From: Acidobacteriota bacterium
Lineage (GTDB): Bacteria; Acidobacteriota; Thermoanaerobaculia; Gp7-AA8
Length of the DNA: 64,000 bases
Direction: 5' to 3'
Assembly (NCBI GenBank): GCA_003223645.1
Contig: QHVT01000004.1
Span: 247,334 to 311,333, forward strand
Shown here in pieces: positions 926 through 43,775 of the stretch. The notes below the pieces were generated by a model. It was given only the letters and a program-made list of their open reading frames with translations. It was not told where the DNA came from and made no database searches. Position numbers and translations under genes: made by a program. Numbering within the stretch: the first letter of the stretch is position 1; the number at the start of each line of letters is the position of its first letter.

Positions 926-1501
926 TTAAAACTTCCACGTGATGCGCGCGATGTCCTGCTTCGCGTCGTCGGCCGCGGTCACGACGAACAGTTTCTCCGC
1001 GCCGTTCGGCGCGACGAGCTTCACGTTGTAGCTTCCCGGCTCGGCGAAGTCGTAGACCTCGTCCATCGAGTTGAACTGCGTCACCTGGCCGATCGGAAGA
1101 TCGTTGACGTACACGAGCACGTCGTCCGGCAGCACGTTGAATACGACGCCGCGGCGCGCCCAGTAGCGGGACGTCGCTTGAACGCCGCCGCTGTCGTTGG
1201 TGATCACGGTGCGCGACGTGCCGGGCACGGGCTCGTTCGCGACGGGAGTGTTCTCCGGCAGCACGAGCGATGCGCCGGCGCCCGGCTCGCCTCCCGGCGC
1301 GGGCGCGGTGGGACGCGCTTTGCGCGCCGGCACGTGCGCGAGGATCGTGTCGTCGCTGCGGAAGCGCAAGCCGGTGTAGACCGCGAGCGCGGCGAGCGTT
1401 ACGAGGACGACGCCGATGAAGATCGGGATCCAGCGCGGCATCGGCGCGGACGGCTCTTCATCGTCGCGCGAGAGATCGGCCTCAGGAGGTTGCTCCGTCA
1501 T
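926..1501 (-). CDS. Membrane-anchored PEGA-like periplasmic protein (hypothetical)
   Basis: A 191-residue protein. An acidic, proline-containing cytoplasmic tail of about 24 residues is followed by one hydrophobic segment (IPIFIGVVLVTLAALAVYTG, about residues 26-45). A low-complexity Pro/Ala/Gly linker comes next, then a C-terminal domain of about 80 residues containing VLPDDVLVYVNDLPIGQV and FAEPGSYNVKLVAPNGAEKL. That pattern resembles the small PEGA-type beta domain usually found outside the cytoplasmic membrane. Its start overlaps the end of the DUF2007 gene by 20 nt, so it is the last gene of the selD-DUF2007 operon. Function unknown. Confidence 0.7.
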   Translation of the reverse strand: MTEQPPEADLSRDDEEPSAPMPRWIPIFIGVVLVTLAALAVYTGLRFRSDDTILAHVPARKARPTAPAPGGEPGAGASLVLPENTPVANEPVPGTSRTVITNDSGGVQATSRYWARRGVVFNVLPDDVLVYVNDLPIGQVTQFNSMDEVYDFAEPGSYNVKLVAPNGAEKLFVVTAADDAKQDIARITWKF

Positions 1502-1844
1502 CGCTCTCCGCCTGCGCGTTCTCGTCGATCTCGGCGACGCCCTCGTCGGTCACGAGCGTGTCGTCGTCGTCATCGATGTGGTCTTCGTATTCGCGCTCGC
1601 GCTCGCGCAACAACTGCATCGCGCGCGGCTCGTCCTCGGCGGTGACGAAGATCCGGATCTCCCCCATCGTTCCGAAGTTGATCGGCTCCATGTGGAACTT
1701 CACGTCCTCGATCTGCGCGGGAATGCCTTCCGCCTCGAGAAATCCCCGCAACAGGTTCGCTTCGTCCTCGGTGCCGACGCTCGCAATCTCCACGAGTGTC
1801 GTGCCGTCCTCGGCGGTAATGGTGTTGGCGGTATCGTCAGGCAT
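1482..1844 (-). CDS. DUF2007-type putative signal-transducing protein
   Basis: A 120-residue protein. The core TLVEIASVGTEDEANLLRGFL, followed by AEGIPAQIEDVKF and IRIFVTAEDEPRAMQLLRE, matches the alpha/beta DUF2007 fold, where a short ferredoxin-like domain is predicted to bind a regulator. The last 40 residues are highly acidic (EYEDHIDDDDDTLVTDEGVAE) and probably disordered. The gene starts 12 nt after the selD stop, with an AAGGAG sequence in the gap, so translation from the selD message is expected. It overlaps the downstream membrane protein gene. A selenium link is only positional. Confidence 0.75.
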   Translation of the reverse strand: MPDDTANTITAEDGTTLVEIASVGTEDEANLLRGFLEAEGIPAQIEDVKFHMEPINFGTMGEIRIFVTAEDEPRAMQLLREREREYEDHIDDDDDTLVTDEGVAEIDENAQAESDDGATS

Positions 1845-33045: not shown

Positions 33046-33690
33046 TTACTTGCCCAATTCCCGCAAGTCGCGATTCTCGAGCACGCGTTTCGGCGCGCCT
33101 TCGCGCGCGGCGCGGATCATCGCGCGTCCGAGCTCCTCGCTGGTGATGACCATGCCGGGCGCAATGCGCCGGATCAGCGGCAGCAGCGGACGGAAAATCA
33201 TGTAGCTGATCCGCGTCCAGCGCGTTTTCGACACTTCGCGATTCATCGGCATCAGCATCGCCAGCCGAAACATGTATGCGCTCGGAAACAGCGCCAGCAA
33301 CGCGTCCTCGGTGCGCTTCTTCACCTGCGCCCACATCGCCTTCCCGCCCGTGCCCGCGCCGGAGACGTAGATGAAGGTCATCGATGGCTGGATGTGCGCG
33401 AGCGCGCGCGCCCAGCTGAGCGTGAGGTCATGCGTGAGGCGCGTGTACTCCGCTTCGCCCATGCCGGCGGACGAAACGCCGAGGCAGAAGAAGCAAGCGT
33501 CATAACCGAGAAGGTCCAGCGCTGCGCAGTCGAAGAGATCCTTGCAAATCTGCTCGCGCAATTTCGGATGCGTGACGCCGGTCGAGCTGCGGCCGACGAC
33601 CAGAACGCTGTCGACGCCGTCGTCGCGCAGGCATTCTCGAAGAACGGCCTGCCCCACCATGCCGGTCGCGCCGAAGAGGATGACGTTCAC
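33046..33690 (-). CDS. NAD(P)-binding epimerase/atypical SDR (NmrA-like)
   Basis: A 214-residue Rossmann protein. The dinucleotide-binding loop is ILFGATGMVGQAVLRECL (residues 4-21). The catalytic region includes CFFCLGVSSAGMGEAEYTRLTHDLT and SMTFIYVSGAGTGG, in place of the usual YxxxK. It ends RVLENRDLRELGK. Related proteins include HTATIP2/TIP30-like NAD-binding proteins of unknown substrate. The start ATG overlaps the stop of the MATE gene (ATGA), so it is the last gene of the efflux operon. Function is not defined. Confidence 0.8.
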   Translation of the reverse strand: MNVILFGATGMVGQAVLRECLRDDGVDSVLVVGRSSTGVTHPKLREQICKDLFDCAALDLLGYDACFFCLGVSSAGMGEAEYTRLTHDLTLSWARALAHIQPSMTFIYVSGAGTGGKAMWAQVKKRTEDALLALFPSAYMFRLAMLMPMNREVSKTRWTRISYMIFRPLLPLIRRIAPGMVITSEELGRAMIRAAREGAPKRVLENRDLRELGK

Positions 33691-35069
33691 GCCGGCATGC
33701 TACTGCGGATGTCGACCGCGATGTTCCGCCAGCGTCCCTGCCTGAAGCGGAGGACGCTCAGCGCGGCGCGCGTGAAGTGGCCGAGGACAATGGCGAGCCA
33801 GATGTCGCTCGCGTGCAGGCCGCGCGTCATTTGCAGATAGGTGCACATGCCGATCGGCACGACGATCTGCGAAATGATCGAGATGAAGAGCGGGCTGCGC
33901 GTGTCGCCGGTGCCCTGCAGGCCGCCGGTGTAGCTGAGCGCGATGGTGACGAGGAAGCCGGAGACGCTGAGGTAGCGGAGGAGTTGCGAGCCGATCGTCG
34001 TGACGAGCGGCTCGGTCATGCCGAACACGCCGAGCAACGCCCCGGGGATGAGGACGAATGCCGTGCCGACGATCGCGGCGACGCCGAGACCGATGCGCGC
34101 GGAGAGCGCGACTCCGCGCGCGGCGCGATCGGGCTGGCCGGCGCCGAGGTTTTGTCCGGCGATCGTCGATGCGGAGCCCATCAGGCCGAAGGACGTCCAG
34201 GTGATGAGCGAGAAGAGCTCCGTGTATCCGACCGCGTACGCGGCCTGCGCGGCCGCGCTCTGCGGGAGCGAGCCGATGAAGCGCACGAGCAGCACGCCGG
34301 CGACGTTCATCGCGATTCCCTGAAATCCCGCCGGCAGTCCGAAGCGGAACAGCGAGCGGATGATCGCGAAGTCGGGCCGGAGGCTCATGCCCTTGCCGAA
34401 GTGAATCACCGAGCCGGGCACGAAGAACTTGCGCAATCCGTACGCGGCGACGATCAAGCTGCTGCCGATCGTGCCGAGCGCAGCGCCGCGCGTGCCGAGG
34501 CGCGGGATGAGCGCGACGTTGAAGACGATGGTGAACGCCGTTAACGCGACGCCGAGGCGCAGCGGCGTGCGCGCGTCGCCGGCGGCGCGAAAGGCGGCGC
34601 CGAGCATGAAGAAGAGCATCATCCCGCCGATGCCGGCGAACATCGTGCGCAGGAACGGCAGCGCTTCGTGCTGCACCGCGGGCGCGGCGCGCACGACGTC
34701 GAGCAGCATCGGCGCGGACGTGTAGCCGACGACGCCCATGATCGCGGAGAGCGCGATCGCGGCGAGGAGCGCCTGATAGACGACGCGGTTCACTTTCTCC
34801 GGATCGTTCGCGCCGGCGAAGCGCGTCACCAGCACGACCATGCCCGTGAAGAGAGAGCTGATGAAGACGATGACGACGATAATGATCTGCCAGCTGACGC
34901 CGATCGCCGCGTTGGCGGTGTAGCCGACGTAGTGACCGACCATCACGTGGTCGATGATTCCCTGCAGACCGGCGATCGCGTTCTGCAGCATCGTCGGCCA
35001 GGCGATCTTCCAGACCGCCCGCCCCAGCGGACCGTCGACGATCGAGCGGTCGAAGGTTTGTGCGGGCAT
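33687..35069 (-). CDS. MATE-family multidrug efflux transporter
   Basis: A 460-residue integral membrane protein with 12 predicted hydrophobic segments. It begins PLGRAVWKIAWPTMLQNAIAGLQ, the first helix of MATE proteins, with TNAAIGVS-type, FAGANDPEKVNR and the mid-protein GLPAGFQGIAMNVAGVLLVRF and AGQNLGAGQPDRAARG motifs of the second half. Expected to export cationic drugs in exchange for Na+ or H+. The ATG overlaps the stop of the RND-OMF gene by one base (TGATG), so it is translationally coupled within one efflux operon. Confidence 0.92.
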   Translation of the reverse strand: MPAQTFDRSIVDGPLGRAVWKIAWPTMLQNAIAGLQGIIDHVMVGHYVGYTANAAIGVSWQIIIVVIVFISSLFTGMVVLVTRFAGANDPEKVNRVVYQALLAAIALSAIMGVVGYTSAPMLLDVVRAAPAVQHEALPFLRTMFAGIGGMMLFFMLGAAFRAAGDARTPLRLGVALTAFTIVFNVALIPRLGTRGAALGTIGSSLIVAAYGLRKFFVPGSVIHFGKGMSLRPDFAIIRSLFRFGLPAGFQGIAMNVAGVLLVRFIGSLPQSAAAQAAYAVGYTELFSLITWTSFGLMGSASTIAGQNLGAGQPDRAARGVALSARIGLGVAAIVGTAFVLIPGALLGVFGMTEPLVTTIGSQLLRYLSVSGFLVTIALSYTGGLQGTGDTRSPLFISIISQIVVPIGMCTYLQMTRGLHASDIWLAIVLGHFTRAALSVLRFRQGRWRNIAVDIRSSMPA

Positions 35070-38000
35070 CAGGCGATGCTCAAAGGCTCAAAGGCGCAGA
35101 GGCTCATGGGCTCATAGAAAACGCTATGAGCCCAGGCGATTTTTCTTCGTCCCGCGCCCGCCCCCGGGGTGGGCGAGCGAAGTGATTGGCGTTCCCCCGT
35201 CCCGGGCGCGGAAGCGGGCGTGGGCGCGGGAAGCTCGCGCTGTTGCACACTGGAGGCCGGGTGAGGGGTGTCGATTCCACCAAGCGCTTTGTACACCGCA
35301 ACCACGCTCGTGAACACTTCCGCCTCGGCTTGTGCCACCGCGTCTTCCGCCTGCAGCTGCGTGCGTTCCGCGTCGAGCAGCGCGAGGAAGTCGGCTACGC
35401 CTTCGCGGTAGCGCGCTCGCGCGATCGCCGATGCACGCGCGCTTTCACGAGCCTGATCGTTCAGTTTCACCAGCCGCTGTTGCTGCTCGCGGTAATGGAC
35501 GAACGCGTTTTCGGTTTCTTCGAGCGCGCGGAGGACGGTTTGTTCATAGATCGCGGCGGCTTCGCGCGTCGATGCTTTCGCGCCGCGGAGGCGCGCGCGG
35601 GCGCTGCCGAGGTCGAACGCGGCCCAGGAGAGCGCGGGAGTGACGGCCCACGTTTGCGACTCGCTTTTTCCGAAGAGACTTCCGCGGCCGGCGAGAAATC
35701 CGAGGACGCCGGTGATGCTGATGCGCGGATAGAGATCGGCGCTGGCGATTCCTTCGCGCGCGGTTGCTGCGGCGAGGCGACGCTCCGCCGCGCGGACGTC
35801 GGGGCGGTTCTGCACGTCGCCGACCGGCAGCTCTTTCGCGAGCGGCGGATAGGCGCGCGGCGCGAGCTCGGCGTCGAGCTCGCCCGGCTTGCGTCCGGTC
35901 AGCACGGCGACGCGATACATGTGCGCGGCGATGGCGATGCGCAGCGGGGACAGATCGGCATCGATGGCCGCGACGCGTGCCGAAGCGCGCGCGACGTCGA
36001 GCTCCTCGCCAATCCCCGCATCGCGCCGCGCGGTCGTCAGGCGAAGCGTATCGCGCTGATTGGTGAGACTCTTCTCCGCGACGGCGAGCTGCTGCTGCAA
36101 TCCGCGGAGCTCGAAATAGTTGCGCGCGATTTCCGCGGCGATGATGACGCGTACGTCGTCGAGCGACGCCTGAAAGCTTTCCGCGTTCGCCTTCGCCGCC
36201 TTCACTTGCGAGCGCACGCGTCCGAAGAGATCGAGCTCCCAGAACGCGTCGAAGCCGGCGCGGTACGTCGTCGTCTCGACTTCGAACTCCTTCCGCTTGT
36301 CGACGAACGCGTTCGCGGTGACGTGCGGATAGCGATCGCGCGACGACTCGGTGAAGAACGCGCGCGCTTCATCGAATCGCGCGACCGCGATGCGCACGTC
36401 GTGATTCGATTCGACCGCGTCCGCTTCGAGTTTCTCGAGCACCGGGTCGTCGAACTGATGCCACCACGTGTCCGCTTTCGCGGGAATGCTGACGAACAGC
36501 ACGAGCAGCATCGACGCGGCGGCTGCCGCGGGGACGAGCTTGCGGCGCGAGAAACGGTCGACGAGATTGCCGAGGAACGTGAAGAAGACGGGCGTGAGGA
36601 AGAGACCGAAGAGGGTGACGCCGAGCATGCCGGCGAAGACCGCGATGCCCATCGCGCGGCGAATCTCCATGCCGGCACCGTGCGAGAAGACGAGCGGGAG
36701 CACGCCCATGATGAACGCGATCGACGTCATCAGCACGGGACGCAGCCGCACGCGGCAGGCTTCGAGAATCGCGGTCACGCGATCGTCGCCCTGTTCCTCG
36801 CGGTGCTTCGCGAACTCGATGATGAGGATCGAGTTCTTGCATGCGAGTCCCGCGAGCACGAGAAACGCGATCTGTGTGAAGACGTTGTTGTCGCCGCCCG
36901 TCACCCACACCCCCGCGATCGCGGAGAGGATCGTCAGCGGCACGACGAGGATGACGGCGAGCGGCAGCCACCAGCTCTCGTATTGCGCGGCGAGCACGAC
37001 GTACACGAGCAGCACGCACAACGGAAAGATCAGCACCATCGTGTTGCCGGAGAGAAGTTCCTGATACGCGAGCTCCGTCCATTCGAACGACATTCCGTCC
37101 GGCAGTTTCTTGCGCAACACATTCGCGATCGCGTTCTGCGCCTGTCCCGAGCTGGATCCCGGCGCGGGGGCGCCGTTGATCTCGGCCGCGGGAAATCCGT
37201 TGTAGTGCATCACCTGCTCGGGTCCGTATCCGCTGCCGATATTGACGAGCGATCCGAGGGGAACCATCGCGCCGCGATCGTTGCGCGTTTCGAGTCTCTG
37301 AATCGTTTCCGGTTGGATGCGGAACTTCGGCTCGGCTTGCACGTTGACCTGGTACGTGCGACCAAAGCGATTGAAGTCGTTGACGTAGAGCGATCCGAGG
37401 TAGACCTGCAGCGTGTCGAAGACATCGGTGAGCGGCACGCCGTAGGTCTTCGCGCGCTCGCGGTCGACCTTCGCGTCGATCTGCGGCACGCTGACCTGGA
37501 AGCTGGAGAAGAGTCCGGCCAGCTCCTTCTGTTTGTAGCCTTCGCCGATCGCGCTCTGCACGTTCGCGTACAACTCTTCGAATCCCGCGCCGCCGCGATC
37601 TTCGACGAACAACTTGAAGCCGCCGATGCTGCCGAGCCCCTGCACGGGCGGCGGCGGAAAGATCGCGACGTACGCCTCCTGGATGCCGGAGTACTTTGCA
37701 TTCAATGCGGCGGCGATCTTCTCCGCGCTCTCTCGCTCTTCCTGCGGCTTCAGCGTCACGAAGACGATGCCGGTATTCGACGCGTTCACGAATCCGTTGA
37801 CCGACAGTCCCGGAAACGCGACCGAGCTCTCGACACCCGGATGCTTCAACGCGATGTCTGACATCCGCCGAATCACCGCCTCGGTGCGATCCAACGTCGC
37901 CGCATCGGGCAGTTGCGCGAACGCGACGAGATACGACTTGTCCTGCTGCGGCACGAATCCCTGCGGCACTTTGTTGAGACCGAGCCAGCCGAGGGCGACG

Positions 38001-39667
38001 AGGCCGACGTAGACGACGAGCGCGGCGACGGAGACGCGCAGCACGCGCGCGACGCCGGACGAATAGACCGACGACGCGCGCTTGAAGCCGCGATTGAAGA
38101 GGCGGAAGAACCAGCCGAAGAGACGATCGATGGCGCGCTGCAGACGGTCGCGCGGCGCGCCATGCGGAAGCAGCAGGCGGGATGCGAGGGCGGGGCTGAG
38201 GGTGAGGGAGTTGAAGGCGGAGATGACCGTCGAGATGGCGATCGTCAATGCGAACTGGCGATAGAACTGGCCGGTGAGGCCGCTGATGAACGCCGTCGGA
38301 ATGAAGACGGCGCTGAGCACGAGCGCGATGGCGATGATCGGGCCCGACACTTCCCTCATCGCCGCGCGCGTCGCTTCGAGCGGCGACGCGCCGAGCTCGA
38401 TGTGCCGCTCGACGTTCTCGACGACGACGATCGCGTCGTCGACGACGATGCCGATCGCGAGCACGAGCCCGAACAAGGACAGTGTGTTCAGCGAGAAGCC
38501 GAGCATCAACATCACGGCAAACGTGCCGATGAGCGAGACCGGGACGGCGACGAGCGGAATGACCGACGCGCGCCACGTCTGCAGGAACACGATCACGACG
38601 ATGACGACGAGGAGGATCGCTTCGAACAGCGTCTCCACGACCGCGCTGATCGAATGGCGCACGAAGATCGTCGGGTCGTAGACGATCTTGTAGTCGACGC
38701 CGGCGGGGAACGATCTCTTCAGCCGCTCCATCGTCGCGCGGACTTCGTTCGACGCCTGAATCGCGTTCGTGCCGGGACGCTGGAAGATGCCGATGGCGAC
38801 GGCATTCTGATTGTCGAGGAGGCTGCGCATCGAATAGCGGTCCGCGCCGATCTGCACGCGTCCGACGTCGCGAATGCGCGTGATCTGCCCGTCCGGCGTC
38901 GCGCGCACGACAATGTTCGCGAACTCTTCTTCGGTCGTGAGGCGTCCCTGCGCGTTGATGGAGAGTTGGAACGTCGTATCGCTCGGCGCGGGCGGCGCGC
39001 CTAACACGCCCGCCGCAACCTGCACGTTCTGCTCGCGAATCGCGCGCACGACGTCCGTCGCCGTCAATTGACGCGACGCGAGGCGGTCGGGATCGAGCCA
39101 CACGCGCATGCTGTACTCGCCCGCGCCGAACACCTGCGCGGCGCCGACGCCGCTGATGCGGGCCAGCTCGTCCTTCACGCGCAGGTGCGCGAAGTTCGAG
39201 AGGTAGAGCATGTCGTAGCGGTTGTCGGGCGAGAGGAGGTGCACGACCATGATGAAGTCGGGCGAGGCCTTCTCGGTGACGACGCCGATGCGCTGTACTT
39301 CCTGCGGCAGCCGCGGCAACGCCTGCGCCACGCGGTTCTGCACCTGCACCTGCGCGTTGTCGAGGTCTGTGCCGACGGCGAACGTCGCGGTCAATTGCAT
39401 GTGACCGTCGGACGTCGACTGCGAAAACATGTACAGCAGTCCCTCGATCCCGTTGAGCTGCTGCTCGAGCGGGCCGGCAACGGTCTCGGCGATCACTTTC
39501 GGATTCGCGCCGGGATACGCCGCGCGCACGACGACGGTCGGCGGCGCGACGCTCGGGTATTCGCTCACCGGCAGGTTGAAGAGCGCGATCGCGCCGCCGA
39601 CCACGATGAGGAGCGAGAGCACGGCCGCGAAGATCGGCCGCGGGATAAAGAATTGTGCGAGTCTCAT
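35069..39667 (-). CDS. RND permease fused in frame to a TolC/NodT-type outer-membrane factor
   Basis: A 1532-residue fusion. Residues 1-1035 are a complete HAE1/AcrB permease: IPRPIFAAVLSLLIVVGGAIALFNLPV, SQSTSDGHMQLTATFAVGTD, GIVVDDAIVVVENVERH in helix 4 with the proton-relay Asp pair, and LAGLACKNSILIIEFA. After the last helix the sequence RRKLVPAAAAASMLLVLFVS and a signal-peptidase-like AKA|D site (Asp about residue 1066) follow. The OMF then runs to about 1465: WWHQFDDPVLEKLEADAVESN, AEIARNYFELRG, GVADFLALLDAERTQLQAE. The last 70 residues translate two word repeats. It ends by TGATG overlap with the MATE gene. A single frame covers both parts and no stop or frameshift was seen. Confidence 0.9.
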   Translation of the reverse strand: MRLAQFFIPRPIFAAVLSLLIVVGGAIALFNLPVSEYPSVAPPTVVVRAAYPGANPKVIAETVAGPLEQQLNGIEGLLYMFSQSTSDGHMQLTATFAVGTDLDNAQVQVQNRVAQALPRLPQEVQRIGVVTEKASPDFIMVVHLLSPDNRYDMLYLSNFAHLRVKDELARISGVGAAQVFGAGEYSMRVWLDPDRLASRQLTATDVVRAIREQNVQVAAGVLGAPPAPSDTTFQLSINAQGRLTTEEEFANIVVRATPDGQITRIRDVGRVQIGADRYSMRSLLDNQNAVAIGIFQRPGTNAIQASNEVRATMERLKRSFPAGVDYKIVYDPTIFVRHSISAVVETLFEAILLVVIVVIVFLQTWRASVIPLVAVPVSLIGTFAVMLMLGFSLNTLSLFGLVLAIGIVVDDAIVVVENVERHIELGASPLEATRAAMREVSGPIIAIALVLSAVFIPTAFISGLTGQFYRQFALTIAISTVISAFNSLTLSPALASRLLLPHGAPRDRLQRAIDRLFGWFFRLFNRGFKRASSVYSSGVARVLRVSVAALVVYVGLVALGWLGLNKVPQGFVPQQDKSYLVAFAQLPDAATLDRTEAVIRRMSDIALKHPGVESSVAFPGLSVNGFVNASNTGIVFVTLKPQEERESAEKIAAALNAKYSGIQEAYVAIFPPPPVQGLGSIGGFKLFVEDRGGAGFEELYANVQSAIGEGYKQKELAGLFSSFQVSVPQIDAKVDRERAKTYGVPLTDVFDTLQVYLGSLYVNDFNRFGRTYQVNVQAEPKFRIQPETIQRLETRNDRGAMVPLGSLVNIGSGYGPEQVMHYNGFPAAEINGAPAPGSSSGQAQNAIANVLRKKLPDGMSFEWTELAYQELLSGNTMVLIFPLCVLLVYVVLAAQYESWWLPLAVILVVPLTILSAIAGVWVTGGDNNVFTQIAFLVLAGLACKNSILIIEFAKHREEQGDDRVTAILEACRVRLRPVLMTSIAFIMGVLPLVFSHGAGMEIRRAMGIAVFAGMLGVTLFGLFLTPVFFTFLGNLVDRFSRRKLVPAAAAASMLLVLFVSIPAKADTWWHQFDDPVLEKLEADAVESNHDVRIAVARFDEARAFFTESSRDRYPHVTANAFVDKRKEFEVETTTYRAGFDAFWELDLFGRVRSQVKAAKANAESFQASLDDVRVIIAAEIARNYFELRGLQQQLAVAEKSLTNQRDTLRLTTARRDAGIGEELDVARASARVAAIDADLSPLRIAIAAHMYRVAVLTGRKPGELDAELAPRAYPPLAKELPVGDVQNRPDVRAAERRLAAATAREGIASADLYPRISITGVLGFLAGRGSLFGKSESQTWAVTPALSWAAFDLGSARARLRGAKASTREAAAIYEQTVLRALEETENAFVHYREQQQRLVKLNDQARESARASAIARARYREGVADFLALLDAERTQLQAEDAVAQAEAEVFTSVVAVYKALGGIDTPHPASSVQQRELPAPTPASAPGTGERQSLRSPTPGAGAGRRKIAWAHSVFYEPMSLCAFEPLSIA
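35090..35245. repeat. Two word inverted repeats inside the 3' end of the RND-OMF gene
   Basis: GCTCATGGGCTCATAG with CTATGAGCCCAGGC (35093-35135) belongs to the GGCTCAT family. CGTCCCGCGCCCGCCCCCGG with CCGGGCGCGGAAGCGGGCG (35148-35240) belongs to the GCGCCCG family seen again at 63543. Both are read through in frame by the fused gene. Confidence 0.85.
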
Positions 39668-39685
39668 GATTTTCCCTTCTCGTCG

Positions 39686-39813
39686 CCCCTCATCCGGCCT
39701 TCGGCCACCTTCTCCCCGCCAGCGGGGAGAAGGGCTACCTGCCATGCTTGGGGTCTTGTTGCCCCTCTCCCCGCTCGGCGGGGAGAGGGTGGCGCGAAGC
39801 GCCGGGTGAGGGG
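39686..39813. repeat. CCCCTCATCCGGC/GCCGGGTGAGGGG inverted repeat with inner hairpins
   Basis: The outer ends CCCCTCATCCGGCCTTCGGC and GCGAAGCGCCGGGTGAGGGG pair imperfectly. Inner parts TTCTCCCCGCCAGCGGGGAG and CTCTCCCCGCTCGGCGGGGA form their own hairpins. This CCCCTCACCCGG-type sequence is a widespread bacterial intergenic repeat. It lies between the adaptor gene's stop and the permease's start. Confidence 0.9.
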
Positions 39814-39821
39814 ACGTGCCA

Positions 39822-40961
39822 TCAAGCGCGACCGTCCATCGCAGCCTTTTCGACGTCGACCGGCACGCCCGGACGGATGCGCTGCAGTCCGTTGATGACG
39901 ACGAGGTCGCCCGATTTCAATCCGCTGCGCACGACTCTCAAGCCGTCAATGACCGGCCCGAGCTGGACGGCGCGATATTCGACTCTGCCGCTGTTGACGA
40001 CGTAGACGTAGCGCTTGTCGAGGTCCGTGCCGACGGCGCGGTCCTGGATCAGCAGCGCGTGATAGCGCGCGCCTCCCGGCACACGCAATCGCACGAACGA
40101 CCCCGGCGTGAGCGACACGTCCTGGTTGCGGAAGATCGCGCGGCCGCGAATCGTGCCGGTCGCCGAGTTGATTTGATTGTCGAGAAAGTTGAGCGTGCCT
40201 TCGCGCGAGAACTTTTCATCGTCGGCGAGCGCCATCCGAATCGGCTGTCCGTTATGCCGTCCGCTCCAGCGCCGGAACGATTGCTCGTCCGCATCGAACG
40301 ACGCGTAAATCGGATCGAGCGAGACGATGGTCGTGAGGAGCGTCGCTTCACCCGGACCGCTCGACACGAGATTGCCGGACGTGACAATCGCGCGTCCGAC
40401 GCGTCCGCTGATCGGCGCCGTGACGCGCGTGAACTCGAGGTTCAGCTCCGCCGCGCGCAGCGCCGCCTGCACGGCCTTCACCTGCGCCGCCGACTCTTCC
40501 GCGAACGCCGCGCGGCGGTCGATCTCCTCCGGCGACATCGCGTTGTCGGACGAGAGATGTTTCGCGCGCTCGAGATCGTTCTCCGCGCGGCGCACGGTCG
40601 CCTCGACGCGCGCGACTTCCGCGCGCAGCCGGTCGACTTCCGCCTGGAACGGACGCGCGTCGATCTCGAACAGCAGATCGCCTTTCTTCACGAGCGCGCC
40701 TTCATCGAAGCGCGCCGCGGAGACGAATCCGGACACACGCGGCCGAATCGCGACGCTGTTCACCGCCTCGAGCCTTCCCGTGAGCTCATCCCACTCCGTC
40801 ACATCCCTCCCCACCACCTCGGCCACCGTGACTTTGGGCGGCGGCGGCGCGCTCGACGCCTGCGCATCCGCACGCGAGCACGCGGTCGACAACAGAATCG
40901 CGGACACCAGGCCCGCGATCAGAACGAACATCCCGAATGCACGGAGTCGAATCACTTTCAC
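39822..40961 (-). CDS. RND efflux periplasmic adaptor (membrane fusion protein), lipoprotein
   Basis: A 379-residue protein from GTG 40961, preceded by GGGAGGA; a longer frame from 41027 lacks a signal. The lipobox is LLSTACSR. The MFP pattern follows: first lipoyl half RLEAVNSVAIRPRVSGFVSAARFDEGALVKKGDLLFEID, a coiled coil of about 60 residues (VDRLRAEVARVEATVRRAENDLERAKHL), the second lipoyl half VTAPISGRVGRAIVTSGNLV, and the beta barrel ending GLKSGDLVVINGLQRIRPG. It would bridge the fused permease and OMF encoded downstream in the same operon. The distance to the next gene is 154 nt, filled by a repeat. Confidence 0.92.
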   Translation of the reverse strand: MKVIRLRAFGMFVLIAGLVSAILLSTACSRADAQASSAPPPPKVTVAEVVGRDVTEWDELTGRLEAVNSVAIRPRVSGFVSAARFDEGALVKKGDLLFEIDARPFQAEVDRLRAEVARVEATVRRAENDLERAKHLSSDNAMSPEEIDRRAAFAEESAAQVKAVQAALRAAELNLEFTRVTAPISGRVGRAIVTSGNLVSSGPGEATLLTTIVSLDPIYASFDADEQSFRRWSGRHNGQPIRMALADDEKFSREGTLNFLDNQINSATGTIRGRAIFRNQDVSLTPGSFVRLRVPGGARYHALLIQDRAVGTDLDKRYVYVVNSGRVEYRAVQLGPVIDGLRVVRSGLKSGDLVVINGLQRIRPGVPVDVEKAAMDGRA

Positions 40962-41112
40962 TTCGGCGTCCTCCCAGCAATCAGACGATTGGTCGTGCAT
41001 GGAATCGACAAACGACGTTGTTTTCATGGGACGTAAAGATGCTTCCGCGAGAGCCCGCGAACAATCGGGCAGTGGTGCGAGGGAGGGGCCTCACGAATGG
41101 GCTAGAGGGATG

Positions 41113-41164: not shown

Positions 41165-41416
41165 GTGAAGACGACACTCGATTTGCCGGATGAAATTGTC
41201 AAGGACGCCAAGGCATCGGCGGCAATCCGAGGAGAGACTCTGCGCGATTACGTAGCCGGCGCTCTCGAAGCTCGCTTGCAGCATGAGACGGCGCGCAAAC
41301 GATCGCATGCCGGATGGCGAAGTGTCTTCGGAGTGGCGCGACGCGCCGATGTTGCTGCAGTCGATCGAATCGTGGCGCGCGATCTGGAAACGATCGATCC
41401 CGAAGATTGGCGATGA
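41165..41416 (+). CDS. VapB-type antitoxin
   Basis: An 83-residue protein from GTG 41165. It begins MKTTLDLPDEIVKDAKASAAIRGETLRDYVAGALE, a ribbon-helix-helix DNA-binding domain of the VapB/DUF2191 kind, followed by a charged C-terminal tail (RSHAGWRSVFGVARRADVAAVD) that would bind the toxin. The stop overlaps the toxin ATG as ATGA. It would neutralise the PIN toxin and repress the module via the upstream dyad. Confidence 0.88.
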   Translation: MKTTLDLPDEIVKDAKASAAIRGETLRDYVAGALEARLQHETARKRSHAGWRSVFGVARRADVAAVDRIVARDLETIDPEDWR

Positions 41417-41790
41417 TTCTTGACACAAATGCCATCTCGGCCCTTCTCTCCGGTAATGGCGGCCTGGAAACAGTGCTGGACGAAGAATCGGTCCATCATC
41501 TTCCTGTCATCGCCATCGGCGAATACAGGTATGGCCTTGCGAGGTCGAAATATGGACAGCGACTCGAACGTCTTCTCGACCTGTTGATTCAAGAATCGGT
41601 CGTGCTTCCAATTGATGAGTCGACGACTCGGCATTACGCAAGACTGCGAGAACAACTGCGTCGTGCCGGTACTCCGATTCCGGAAAACGATGTCTGGATC
41701 GCTGCCTTGGCGCAGCAGCACGATTTGCCAATCATCAGCCGCGACTCGCATTTCGACACCGTCGATCCGCGCATTCGGCGAGCTTGGTGA
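41413..41790 (+). CDS. VapC-type PIN-domain ribonuclease toxin
   Basis: A 125-residue PIN domain. The acidic residues are at ILDTNAIS (Asp4), VIAIGEYRYGL (Glu near 40) and PENDVWIAALAQQHDLPIISRDSHFDT (two Asp in the C-terminal half). The length and order fit VapC. It probably cleaves tRNA or rRNA when freed from the antitoxin. The start overlaps the antitoxin stop, so translation is coupled. The upstream ATG at 41314 lies in the antitoxin and is rejected. Confidence 0.92.
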   Translation: MILDTNAISALLSGNGGLETVLDEESVHHLPVIAIGEYRYGLARSKYGQRLERLLDLLIQESVVLPIDESTTRHYARLREQLRRAGTPIPENDVWIAALAQQHDLPIISRDSHFDTVDPRIRRAW

Positions 41791-41811
41791 GTACAAAGCC
41801 GCAGCCACACC

Positions 41812-41828
41812 TCGTACCTTTGGACGAT
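41812..41828 (+). repeat. Right copy of the 17-bp sequence flanking the vapBC-like module
   Basis: TCGTACCTTTGGACGAT, identical to 41113-41129. It lies 25 bp before the histidine kinase start. The related sequence TCGTACTTT occurs again at 43778, just after the response regulator gene. Confidence 0.75.
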
Positions 41829-41853
41829 TCCCTTCGCGCGAGCCGGGGCGATA

Positions 41854-43149
41854 ATGAATAGCGTGACGTCACCGGTGAAAGACGAGAAGTGCCCGATGGA
41901 AGAGGTCGTCGATCTTTCGGCGACGACCATCGAGGCGGAGATCGAGAAGCGCAAACGCGCGGAGTGCATGGCGCACATGCAGTCGGCCACCGTGCAGCTC
42001 GCGCTCGATCTGCTCGTGCGCGAGCCCGATCTCAAGGGCTTCTTCCGCGGCTTCGTGAAGATGCTGATCGAGCAGGGCGAGAGCGATGCGTGCGGCGTGT
42101 TCATGCTCGATGAGAGCGGCGAGCACTGCCTGCTGAAGATGGCGTACGCCGACAACCGCTTCTACGCGAAAGACGAGCCGGACTGGAACACGCTGAGCCT
42201 TCCGGGTGAGGCGATGGCCGCGCATCTCATGGCGCACGAGGAAGGGTGGAACGCGACCATCGAGTACGCGGGCGATGATCCGCGTCTGCCGGAGGCCGTG
42301 CGCGCGTTCAATCGCGCGTCCAATCTCCGCTGGCTCGCCGTCGCGCCGCTCACCGCCGGCTCGCAAAACCTGGGATGGCTCGCGCTCTCCACCACCGACG
42401 ACGAAGCCGCCGAGTGGGCGCCGTGGCGTCGCATGCTGCTCGAAGCAGTCGCGCTGCAGGTCACGCTCGCGCTGCATCACAACCGCATGTCGAAACGCGC
42501 GCGCGACGAAGAGCGGCGCAAAGCGGTGCTCGAAGAGCGCAACCGCATCGCGCGCGACATCCACGACACGCTCGCGCAGGGATTCGCCGCGATCCTGATG
42601 CAGCTGCAATCGACTCAGCGCTTGCTGCCGTCGCTGCCGAGTACCGCGGCGGAAAGCATCGAGACGGCAGTCGATCTCGCGCGCACGCACATGATCGAAG
42701 CGCGGCGCTCCGTCGGCGCGCTGCGTCCGCAGGATTTCGAGATCGGCGACGTCGCGGCGGTGCTGGAGCGCACGACCGAGCTCGCGCGACGCACGACCGA
42801 CGTACCGATCGAGCTCGTGATCGAAGAGCTCCCCGACCTCGGCGCCGGTGTCGAGCGCGAGATCGTCGCGATCGCGCAGGAAGCGCTCACGAACGCCGTG
42901 CGTCACGCCCGCGCGCGCAAGATCACCGTGCACGCGGCCGGATCGCGCGCCGTCGGCTTCCGCCTCTCCGTCGCCGACGACGGACGCGGCATCGCCAAAG
43001 AACGATTCGGCGCGGGCTTCGGACTCACCAGCATGCAGGAGCGCGCCGAGCGCATCGGCGGATCGCTCACCATCGTGACGGCGCCGCGCGCGGGAACGGA
43101 AGTCGTTCTCGCCTGGGCGCCGCCGTCCTTCAGCATCCCCACTCCATGA
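41854..43149 (+). CDS. NarL-type sensor histidine kinase with GAF domain
   Basis: A 431-residue kinase without transmembrane segments. Residues about 45-205 are a GAF-like sensor domain (LLVREPDLKGFFRGF..., ACGVFMLDESGEHCLLKMAY). The dimerisation and phosphoacceptor part is EERNRIARDIHDTLAQGFAAILMQLQ (HisKA_3, His in RDIHD). The ATPase has AQEALTNAVRHARA as N box and VADDGRGIAKERFGAGFGLTSMQERA as G boxes. It is soluble, so it probably senses a cytoplasmic signal. It overlaps the response regulator gene (ATGA), forming a two-component pair. Confidence 0.93.
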   Translation: MNSVTSPVKDEKCPMEEVVDLSATTIEAEIEKRKRAECMAHMQSATVQLALDLLVREPDLKGFFRGFVKMLIEQGESDACGVFMLDESGEHCLLKMAYADNRFYAKDEPDWNTLSLPGEAMAAHLMAHEEGWNATIEYAGDDPRLPEAVRAFNRASNLRWLAVAPLTAGSQNLGWLALSTTDDEAAEWAPWRRMLLEAVALQVTLALHHNRMSKRARDEERRKAVLEERNRIARDIHDTLAQGFAAILMQLQSTQRLLPSLPSTAAESIETAVDLARTHMIEARRSVGALRPQDFEIGDVAAVLERTTELARRTTDVPIELVIEELPDLGAGVEREIVAIAQEALTNAVRHARARKITVHAAGSRAVGFRLSVADDGRGIAKERFGAGFGLTSMQERAERIGGSLTIVTAPRAGTEVVLAWAPPSFSIPTP

Positions 43150-43775
43150 ACGCCTCTCACTCCGTGCTCGTCGTCGACGATCACGCGCTCGTTCGCACGG
43201 GCGTCGTGAAAATCATCAGTCATGAATCCGACTTGCAGGTCGTCGCCGAAGCGGCCAACGGCGCGGAAGCGGTCGAGGCGTACGCGAAGTTCCGTCCCGA
43301 CGTCACGCTCCTTGATCTGCGCATGCCGGTGATGGAAGGCGTCGAAGCCGTGCGGCAGATTCGCGAGATGGATCCGCAGGCGAAAGTGATCGTGCTGACG
43401 ACGTACGACACGGACGAAGACATCACGCGCGCGCTCAAAGCGGGAGCGAAGGCGTACGCGCTGAAAGACATCAGCGCCGACGAGCTGGTGACCTGCATCC
43501 ACGACGTGCTCGCGGGAAAAACCTATCTCGCGCCGGCGGCAGCGGCGAAGCTCGCCGAGGGAATGGCGCGCATGCAAGTGACGCCGCGCGAGCTCTCGAC
43601 GCTGCGTCTGATGGCCGACGGCAAGAGCAACAAGGAAATCGCCACCTCCCTCGGCATCAGCGAGCGCACCGTCAAATCGCACCTCGGACATCTGTTCGAG
43701 AAGCTCGGCGTCACGAGTCGCACCGAGGCAGTGAAGGTGGCGACACGTCGCGGGCTCGTGCGTTTCGATCAGTGA
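43146..43775 (+). CDS. NarL/FixJ-family response regulator
   Basis: A 209-residue protein. The receiver begins SVLVVDDHALVRTGVVKII. The phospho-Asp is in VTLLDLRMPVMEG and the Thr/Lys switch in VIVLTTYDTDEDI and KAYALKDI. The C-terminal LuxR helix-turn-helix is TPRELSTLRLMADGKSNKEIATSLGISERTVKSHLGHLFEKL. The partner is the overlapping upstream kinase. Its target may be the TCGTACCTTTGGACGAT dyads that lie in front of the operon and in degenerate form after it; this is a guess. Confidence 0.94.
   Translation: MNASHSVLVVDDHALVRTGVVKIISHESDLQVVAEAANGAEAVEAYAKFRPDVTLLDLRMPVMEGVEAVRQIREMDPQAKVIVLTTYDTDEDITRALKAGAKAYALKDISADELVTCIHDVLAGKTYLAPAAAAKLAEGMARMQVTPRELSTLRLMADGKSNKEIATSLGISERTVKSHLGHLFEKLGVTSRTEAVKVATRRGLVRFDQ

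Follow-up and report, generated by a model that had tools for sequence, protein, structure and literature searches.

Tripartite efflux pumps are conventionally seen as assemblies of three separately made parts. RND permeases have 12 helices, with N- and C-termini both cytoplasmic, and the N-terminus of the outer-membrane factor (OMF) lies far from the inner membrane. Pseudomonas MexEF-OprN comprises the adaptor MexE, the RND permease MexF and the OMF OprN; permease and OMF are distinct genes there, read in different frames, and their ends lie close together or overlap. CusA-TolC fusions may occur in Bacteroidota, and OqxAB operons are not known to carry a fused OMF. TolC is a non-lipidated OMF with an ordinary Sec signal and a mature chain that begins near the first helix. 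Outside efflux, the single gene for FbcH, the cytochrome b/c1 precursor of Bradyrhizobium japonicum, reportedly encodes a polytopic inner-membrane protein, an internal signal and an exported protein, which are parted by a signal-peptidase cut.

The locus described here lies in a 64,000-nucleotide stretch of DNA from a soil-type member of the Acidobacteriota, the whole of which we call the window. It resembles MexEF-OprN in gene order and OMF fold, and the Pseudomonas-type loci found share 68-71% identity with it in the permease and 46-51% in the OMF. It differs in encoding permease and OMF as one ORF, and its OMF has an Ala-x-Ala signal and lacks both the lipidated Cys and about 33 residues of the N-terminus, whereas the Pseudomonas-type OMFs displayed for comparison carry a lipobox signal. 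Scored with the OqxAB models, the permease reaches 1,368 bits with OqxB, below the cut-off of 2,200, and the adaptor 313 bits with OqxA. The OMF shares its fold with TolC, which is by contrast the product of a separate gene and a member of another sequence subfamily (14-15% identity, Foldseek). FbcH belongs to a respiratory complex, both of its products are inner-membrane proteins and no outer-membrane protein is involved, whereas the window ORF joins a pump to an outer-membrane channel.

The single-chain permease and OMF proposed in the initial annotation are borne out by the sequence, in that the minus-strand frame runs through 1,532 stop-free codons from the ATG at 39667 to the stop at 35069 and both domains are full length (Table 1). 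A second in-frame ATG, at 39745, lies upstream of this start, inside a dispersed repeat. The Pfam domain ACR_tran (PF00873) is complete over aa 4-1032 (1,181 bits), and the permease part scores 1,445 bits with NCBIfam RND_permease_1 (NF000282; cut-off 1,250), as expected of the HAE-1 MexF/OqxB type. Proton-relay motifs, mapped by eye to AcrB positions, are retained: the TM4 Asp pair (GIVVDDAIVV), the TM10 Lys (LACKNSILI) and the TM11 Arg (RLRPVLMTS). The C-terminal part is matched twice by the Pfam domain OEP (147 bits; best stretch aa 1286-1463) and scores 291.6 bits with TIGR01845 outer_NodT against a cut-off of 210, but that match begins only at profile position 46. Pfam and NCBIfam together place a NodT-type OMF from aa 1064 onwards, in agreement with the TolC/NodT-type factor first suggested. 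The three separate genes of a MexEF-OprN operon are not found, because RND and OMF share one ORF, and the fused RND-OMF gene is real in the assembled sequence.

Table 1 Features of the fused pump locus, in window coordinates
Feature	Coordinates	Strand	Basis
Fused RND permease and outer-membrane factor, one ORF, 1532 aa	35069..39667	-	ORF list, Pfam, NCBIfam, indel simulation
RND permease part, MexF/OqxB type, aa 1-1040	36548..39667	-	ACR_tran 1181 bits; RND_permease_1
Internal signal-peptide-like segment RRKLVPAAAAASMLLVLFVSIPAKA, aa 1041-1065, predicted cut after AKA	36473..36547	-	Sequence; A/V/S-x-A rule
Outer-membrane factor part, OprN/NodT type, without lipidated N-terminus, aa 1066-1464	35276..36472	-	phmmer, AlphaFold, Foldseek
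C-terminal run-on tail (aa 1465-1532, 68 residues) and stop, largely translated dispersed repeats	35069..35275	-	78 genomic matches
Periplasmic adaptor (MFP), MexE/OqxA-like, first gene of the operon	39822..41027	-	NCBIfam MexE 437 bits; RND_mfp 274 bits
Adaptor-permease spacer, a dispersed repeat	39670..39790	.	52 matches in own genome
MATE-like transporter, downstream, possibly translationally coupled	33687..35069	-	ORF list; family by inspection only

The junction between the two domains reads ...LFLTPVFFTFLGNLVDRFS-RRK-LVPAAAAASMLLVLFVSIPAKA↓DTWWHQFDDP, where the arrow marks the predicted cut and aa 1041-1065 correspond to window positions 36473-36547. Three basic residues are followed by a hydrophobic core (KD 2.58) and AKA↓D, exactly the arrangement claimed for it. 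The segment thus has the basic n-region, hydrophobic core and A-x-A of a signal peptide and stands at the start of an exported domain, although its position is internal rather than N-terminal. Between AKA and the conserved WW of the OMF lie just two residues, D-T. The topology put forward with the segment, a cytoplasmic permease C-terminus followed by an N-in/C-out helix, survived our tests and is judged right.

The OMF half aligns with OprN (5azo; phmmer E 8e-112) from residue 34 of the mature OprN chain and thus lacks about 33 residues at the N-terminal end of that chain, the lipidated Cys among them; the predicted mature start, DTWW, has no lipobox Cys. As TolC illustrates, an OMF can work without lipid and without that N-terminal segment. 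AlphaFold gave a mean pLDDT of 86.7, with most of the OMF above 90; the OprN-like fold is modelled confidently from the WW motif onwards, the junction only with low confidence. OprN also ranked first in a Foldseek search with the OMF part (5azp, TM 0.76-0.80). The DNA of the run-on tail (35072-35275) lies outside OMF homology and consists mostly of dispersed repeats with 78 matches in the same genome, so that the true OMF ends near aa 1464.

The adaptor gene lies upstream of the fused ORF in the same direction, giving the order adaptor-RND-OMF, and its best NCBIfam score is with MexE, while RND_mfp is also over its cut-off. At the other end, in the TGATG at 35065-35070, the TGA of the fused ORF overlaps the ATG of the MATE-like gene, and translational coupling is possible. 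Divergent from the operon, at 41314-43775 on the plus strand, inspection indicated ORFs resembling a PIN-domain protein, a GAF-type sensor kinase and a NarL-type regulator, the latter two being a candidate regulatory pair.

The survey of orthologues for which the initial annotation had called showed both isolation and recurrence: within the MexEF-OprN type the window fusion stands alone and the rest are split, while fusions recur in other RND families. The closest relatives in named genomes are mostly MexF-type loci of Pseudomonas and other proteobacteria (permease 68-71%, OMF 45-51% identity), in which the OMF occupies another frame; in the cases displayed the OMF opens with a lipobox signal, and its start spans or closely follows the stop of the permease. 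No fusion was found among the MexEF-OprN-type orthologues checked, and among the loci read from 149 genomes of the same class there was no second fused MexF-like permease. One locus, L110, had seemed a second MexF-type fusion from its frame length of 1509 and is actually split. We rejected a fusion ancestral to MexEF-OprN, as the MexF-type orthologues examined are unfused. Among the pumps compared, the window fusion is therefore lineage-specific and isolated within the MexEF-OprN type.

The nearest orthologue (L010/L029; MAG gp7, QHVY01000287.1) has 87% identity in the permease and 74-75% in the OMF. At its junction (L010 around 1450-1530, minus strand) RND and OMF lie in different frames, the junction is shorter than that of the window, and as assembled it has no plausible OMF start or signal. 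This arrangement suggests a locus at which decay or assembly errors may arise easily, and the orthologue itself may be either a decayed copy or an assembly error. Between the window and this orthologue, dN/dS was 0.093/0.707 for the RND part, 0.158/1.22 for the OMF and 0.171/0.873 for the adaptor, which puts the ratio near 0.13 in RND and OMF alike and near 0.20 in the adaptor, with third-position changes dominating. The OMF part is under purifying selection, and its ratio indicates that it was held by selection over most of the divergence between the two loci.

Two full-length matches prompted a search for fusions elsewhere in the phylum. When all retrieved loci were searched with profiles, 18 distinct ORFs proved to be RND-OMF fusions, the window ORF among them and the 17 others belonging to other RND families in the same phylum; ACR_tran and OEP were both over cut-off in all five further fusions tested (Pfam). 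Like the window ORF, these fusions (L128, L139, L147, L150, L152 and relatives) combine RND, a signal-like segment and OMF in one ORF, of 1469-1600 aa, but their RND subfamilies differ from that of the window. A hydrophobic core is present at all 18 junctions despite differing sequence and length. It is followed by a strict A/V/S-x-A motif in 17 of the 18, compared with 32 of 208 hydrophobic segments (15%) in the same permeases (Fisher p 6e-12). When the alanine-rich c-regions are shuffled with their composition preserved, however, 11.2 of 18 are already expected to fit; composition thus accounts for part of the result, and the motif by itself says less than the comparison with permease helices would imply.

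On a quick FastTree permease tree of 110 rows, which counts changes but not their direction, the fused/split label changed at least 10 times, all forced by well-supported (starred) branches, and the window fusion was remote from the others. Fusion is thus recurrent in the phylum, through separate events in other RND subfamilies, and some of the fusions are conserved across several genomes. In split sisters of the fused pumps the OMF begins with a signal peptide immediately at the stop of the permease, and several of them show a 4-nt ATGA-type overlap (L157-L162, L173). In the split L158, for instance, the permease ends ...EAGR and a 4-nt ATGA overlap leads into MIGRAAPVLLAVGATLGALATPAAA↓EVLTL, and the fused L137 beside it reads ...RRRWDAKGAVAAAIVALLAWGGGAARA↓ETPPPRVLTL. 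At such a stop/start overlap a small indel would join the two reading frames without loss of the signal, a simple route to a polyprotein.

Five genomes of one family (L139-L143) all carry a fused RND-OMF with a well-conserved junction core and a cut-site-like motif before Q, and we judge this clade a better experimental candidate than the window fusion. At L155:866-5041 (minus strand) an RND permease is fused in frame to a periplasmic adaptor (ORF of 1392 aa; HlyD_D23 and HlyD_3 over cut-off), the link between them being a lipoprotein-type signal inside the chain, ...LLLIAGLTVTGAAC↓TAEKAD. The long open frames of L131-L133, L146, L151 and L154 proved to be something other than RND-OMF fusions. 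A plasmid search with the clade B junction and OMF stretch returned a single spanning match, which corresponds to two annotated genes, and no fusion among the matches listed.

We consider it reasonably probable that the window ORF encodes a polyprotein that is inserted co-translationally and cut by signal peptidase I at the internal Sec signal, yielding a non-lipidated TolC-like OMF. The chain would be inserted into the inner membrane during translation as an ordinary 12-helix permease with a cytoplasmic C-terminal end, and RRK would orient the 13th hydrophobic segment N-in/C-out. The OMF half would then be exported through SecYEG, and cleavage by signal peptidase I after AKA would free a permease carrying the leftover 13th helix together with a soluble OMF, which would presumably trimerise and be inserted by BAM as a non-lipidated, TolC-like channel. 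Given the distance of the OMF N-terminus from the inner membrane, and with just D-T between AKA and WW, an uncut tether is hardly compatible with assembly; the uncut chain could hardly span both membranes, and a cut by signal peptidase I is the reading that needs the fewest assumptions. The 3:3 permease:OMF ratio of known pumps would fit equal synthesis, a possible benefit, and the machine encoded in the window presumably pumps. The sequence comparisons themselves establish the intact fused frame, the order of the parts, the signal-like junction, the constraint on the OMF and the recurrence of the layout in other pumps.

The evidence from the OMF half also bears on an unlikely alternative, in which that half no longer works or is being lost, the fusion arose incidentally when the 5' end of the OMF was deleted, and the pump relies on another OMF of the genome. 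Such decay would agree with the isolation of the fusion in its pump family, with the lack of an OMF start or signal in the nearest orthologue as assembled, and with the loss of the OprN N-terminus and the repeat-derived C-terminal run-on; further OMF domains are indeed encoded at other loci of the source genome. It is harder to reconcile with about 400 stop-free OMF codons and their low dN/dS, with the retention of nearly invariant OMF motifs and with a clean signal-like segment in frame. That the chain stays uncut, with segment 13 serving as a transmembrane anchor that tethers the OMF to the permease, is improbable: the hydrophobic stretch is long enough to span the membrane, but the frequency of A/V/S-x-A after the core far exceeds that in permease segments, split sisters place the OMF signal peptide at the same point, and there is almost no linker from AKA to the OMF.

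The remaining alternatives concern how many genes or products there are. The genome is a draft of 51 contigs and the orthologues are split, as would be expected if a sequencing or assembly artefact had joined two separate genes; we nevertheless find this quite improbable, given 1,532 open codons and the 17 comparable fused ORFs from other genome assemblies. The assembled sequence has no stop or frameshift near 36540, a finding that by the initial annotation would have spoken for two separate genes, and one indel could not produce such a layout. Among 540 simulated single-base insertions or deletions (aa 1030-1066), none yielded an early permease stop plus an OMF with its own start and signal, frameshifted versions staying open for 33 or 88 codons beyond the junction, and we rejected a sequencing frameshift on these grounds. 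Two products might also arise through internal translation initiation rather than proteolysis, for which the sole in-frame ATG in the junction, at 36511, is in the right place. This is highly improbable, as the junction has no Shine-Dalgarno-like motif, the resulting signal (MLLVLFVSIPAKA...) would be without a basic n-region, and the upstream frame passes through without a stop.

The claim that few or no studied efflux pumps are made in this way holds in part: our literature search of open-licence papers found no experimental study of an RND-OMF fusion pump, but the architecture is not unique, given the 17 further fusions in the phylum. In the parts of two reviews that we consulted, the fusions mentioned are of other kinds (PMC8277102, PMC4446572). 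The combination of RND and OMF domains is visible to standard domain models. Best-hit annotation hides the channel and its signal within 'RND permease' entries. As a tentative generalization, which may well fail, Acidobacteriota might repeatedly make RND pumps as permease-channel (once permease-adaptor) polyproteins split by signal peptidase at an internal signal, gained by collapse of a stop/start overlap and kept for 1:1 supply or for channel export coupled to permease insertion. Should the window case be one of decay, it would still have to be explained why fusions with signal-like junctions recur elsewhere in the phylum. If the polyprotein reading is true, one chain can yield both a 12-helix protein and an outer-membrane protein through the action of Sec and signal peptidase I, and such fusions would be a natural way of fixing pump stoichiometry, with two proteins of two membranes supplied by one translation event.
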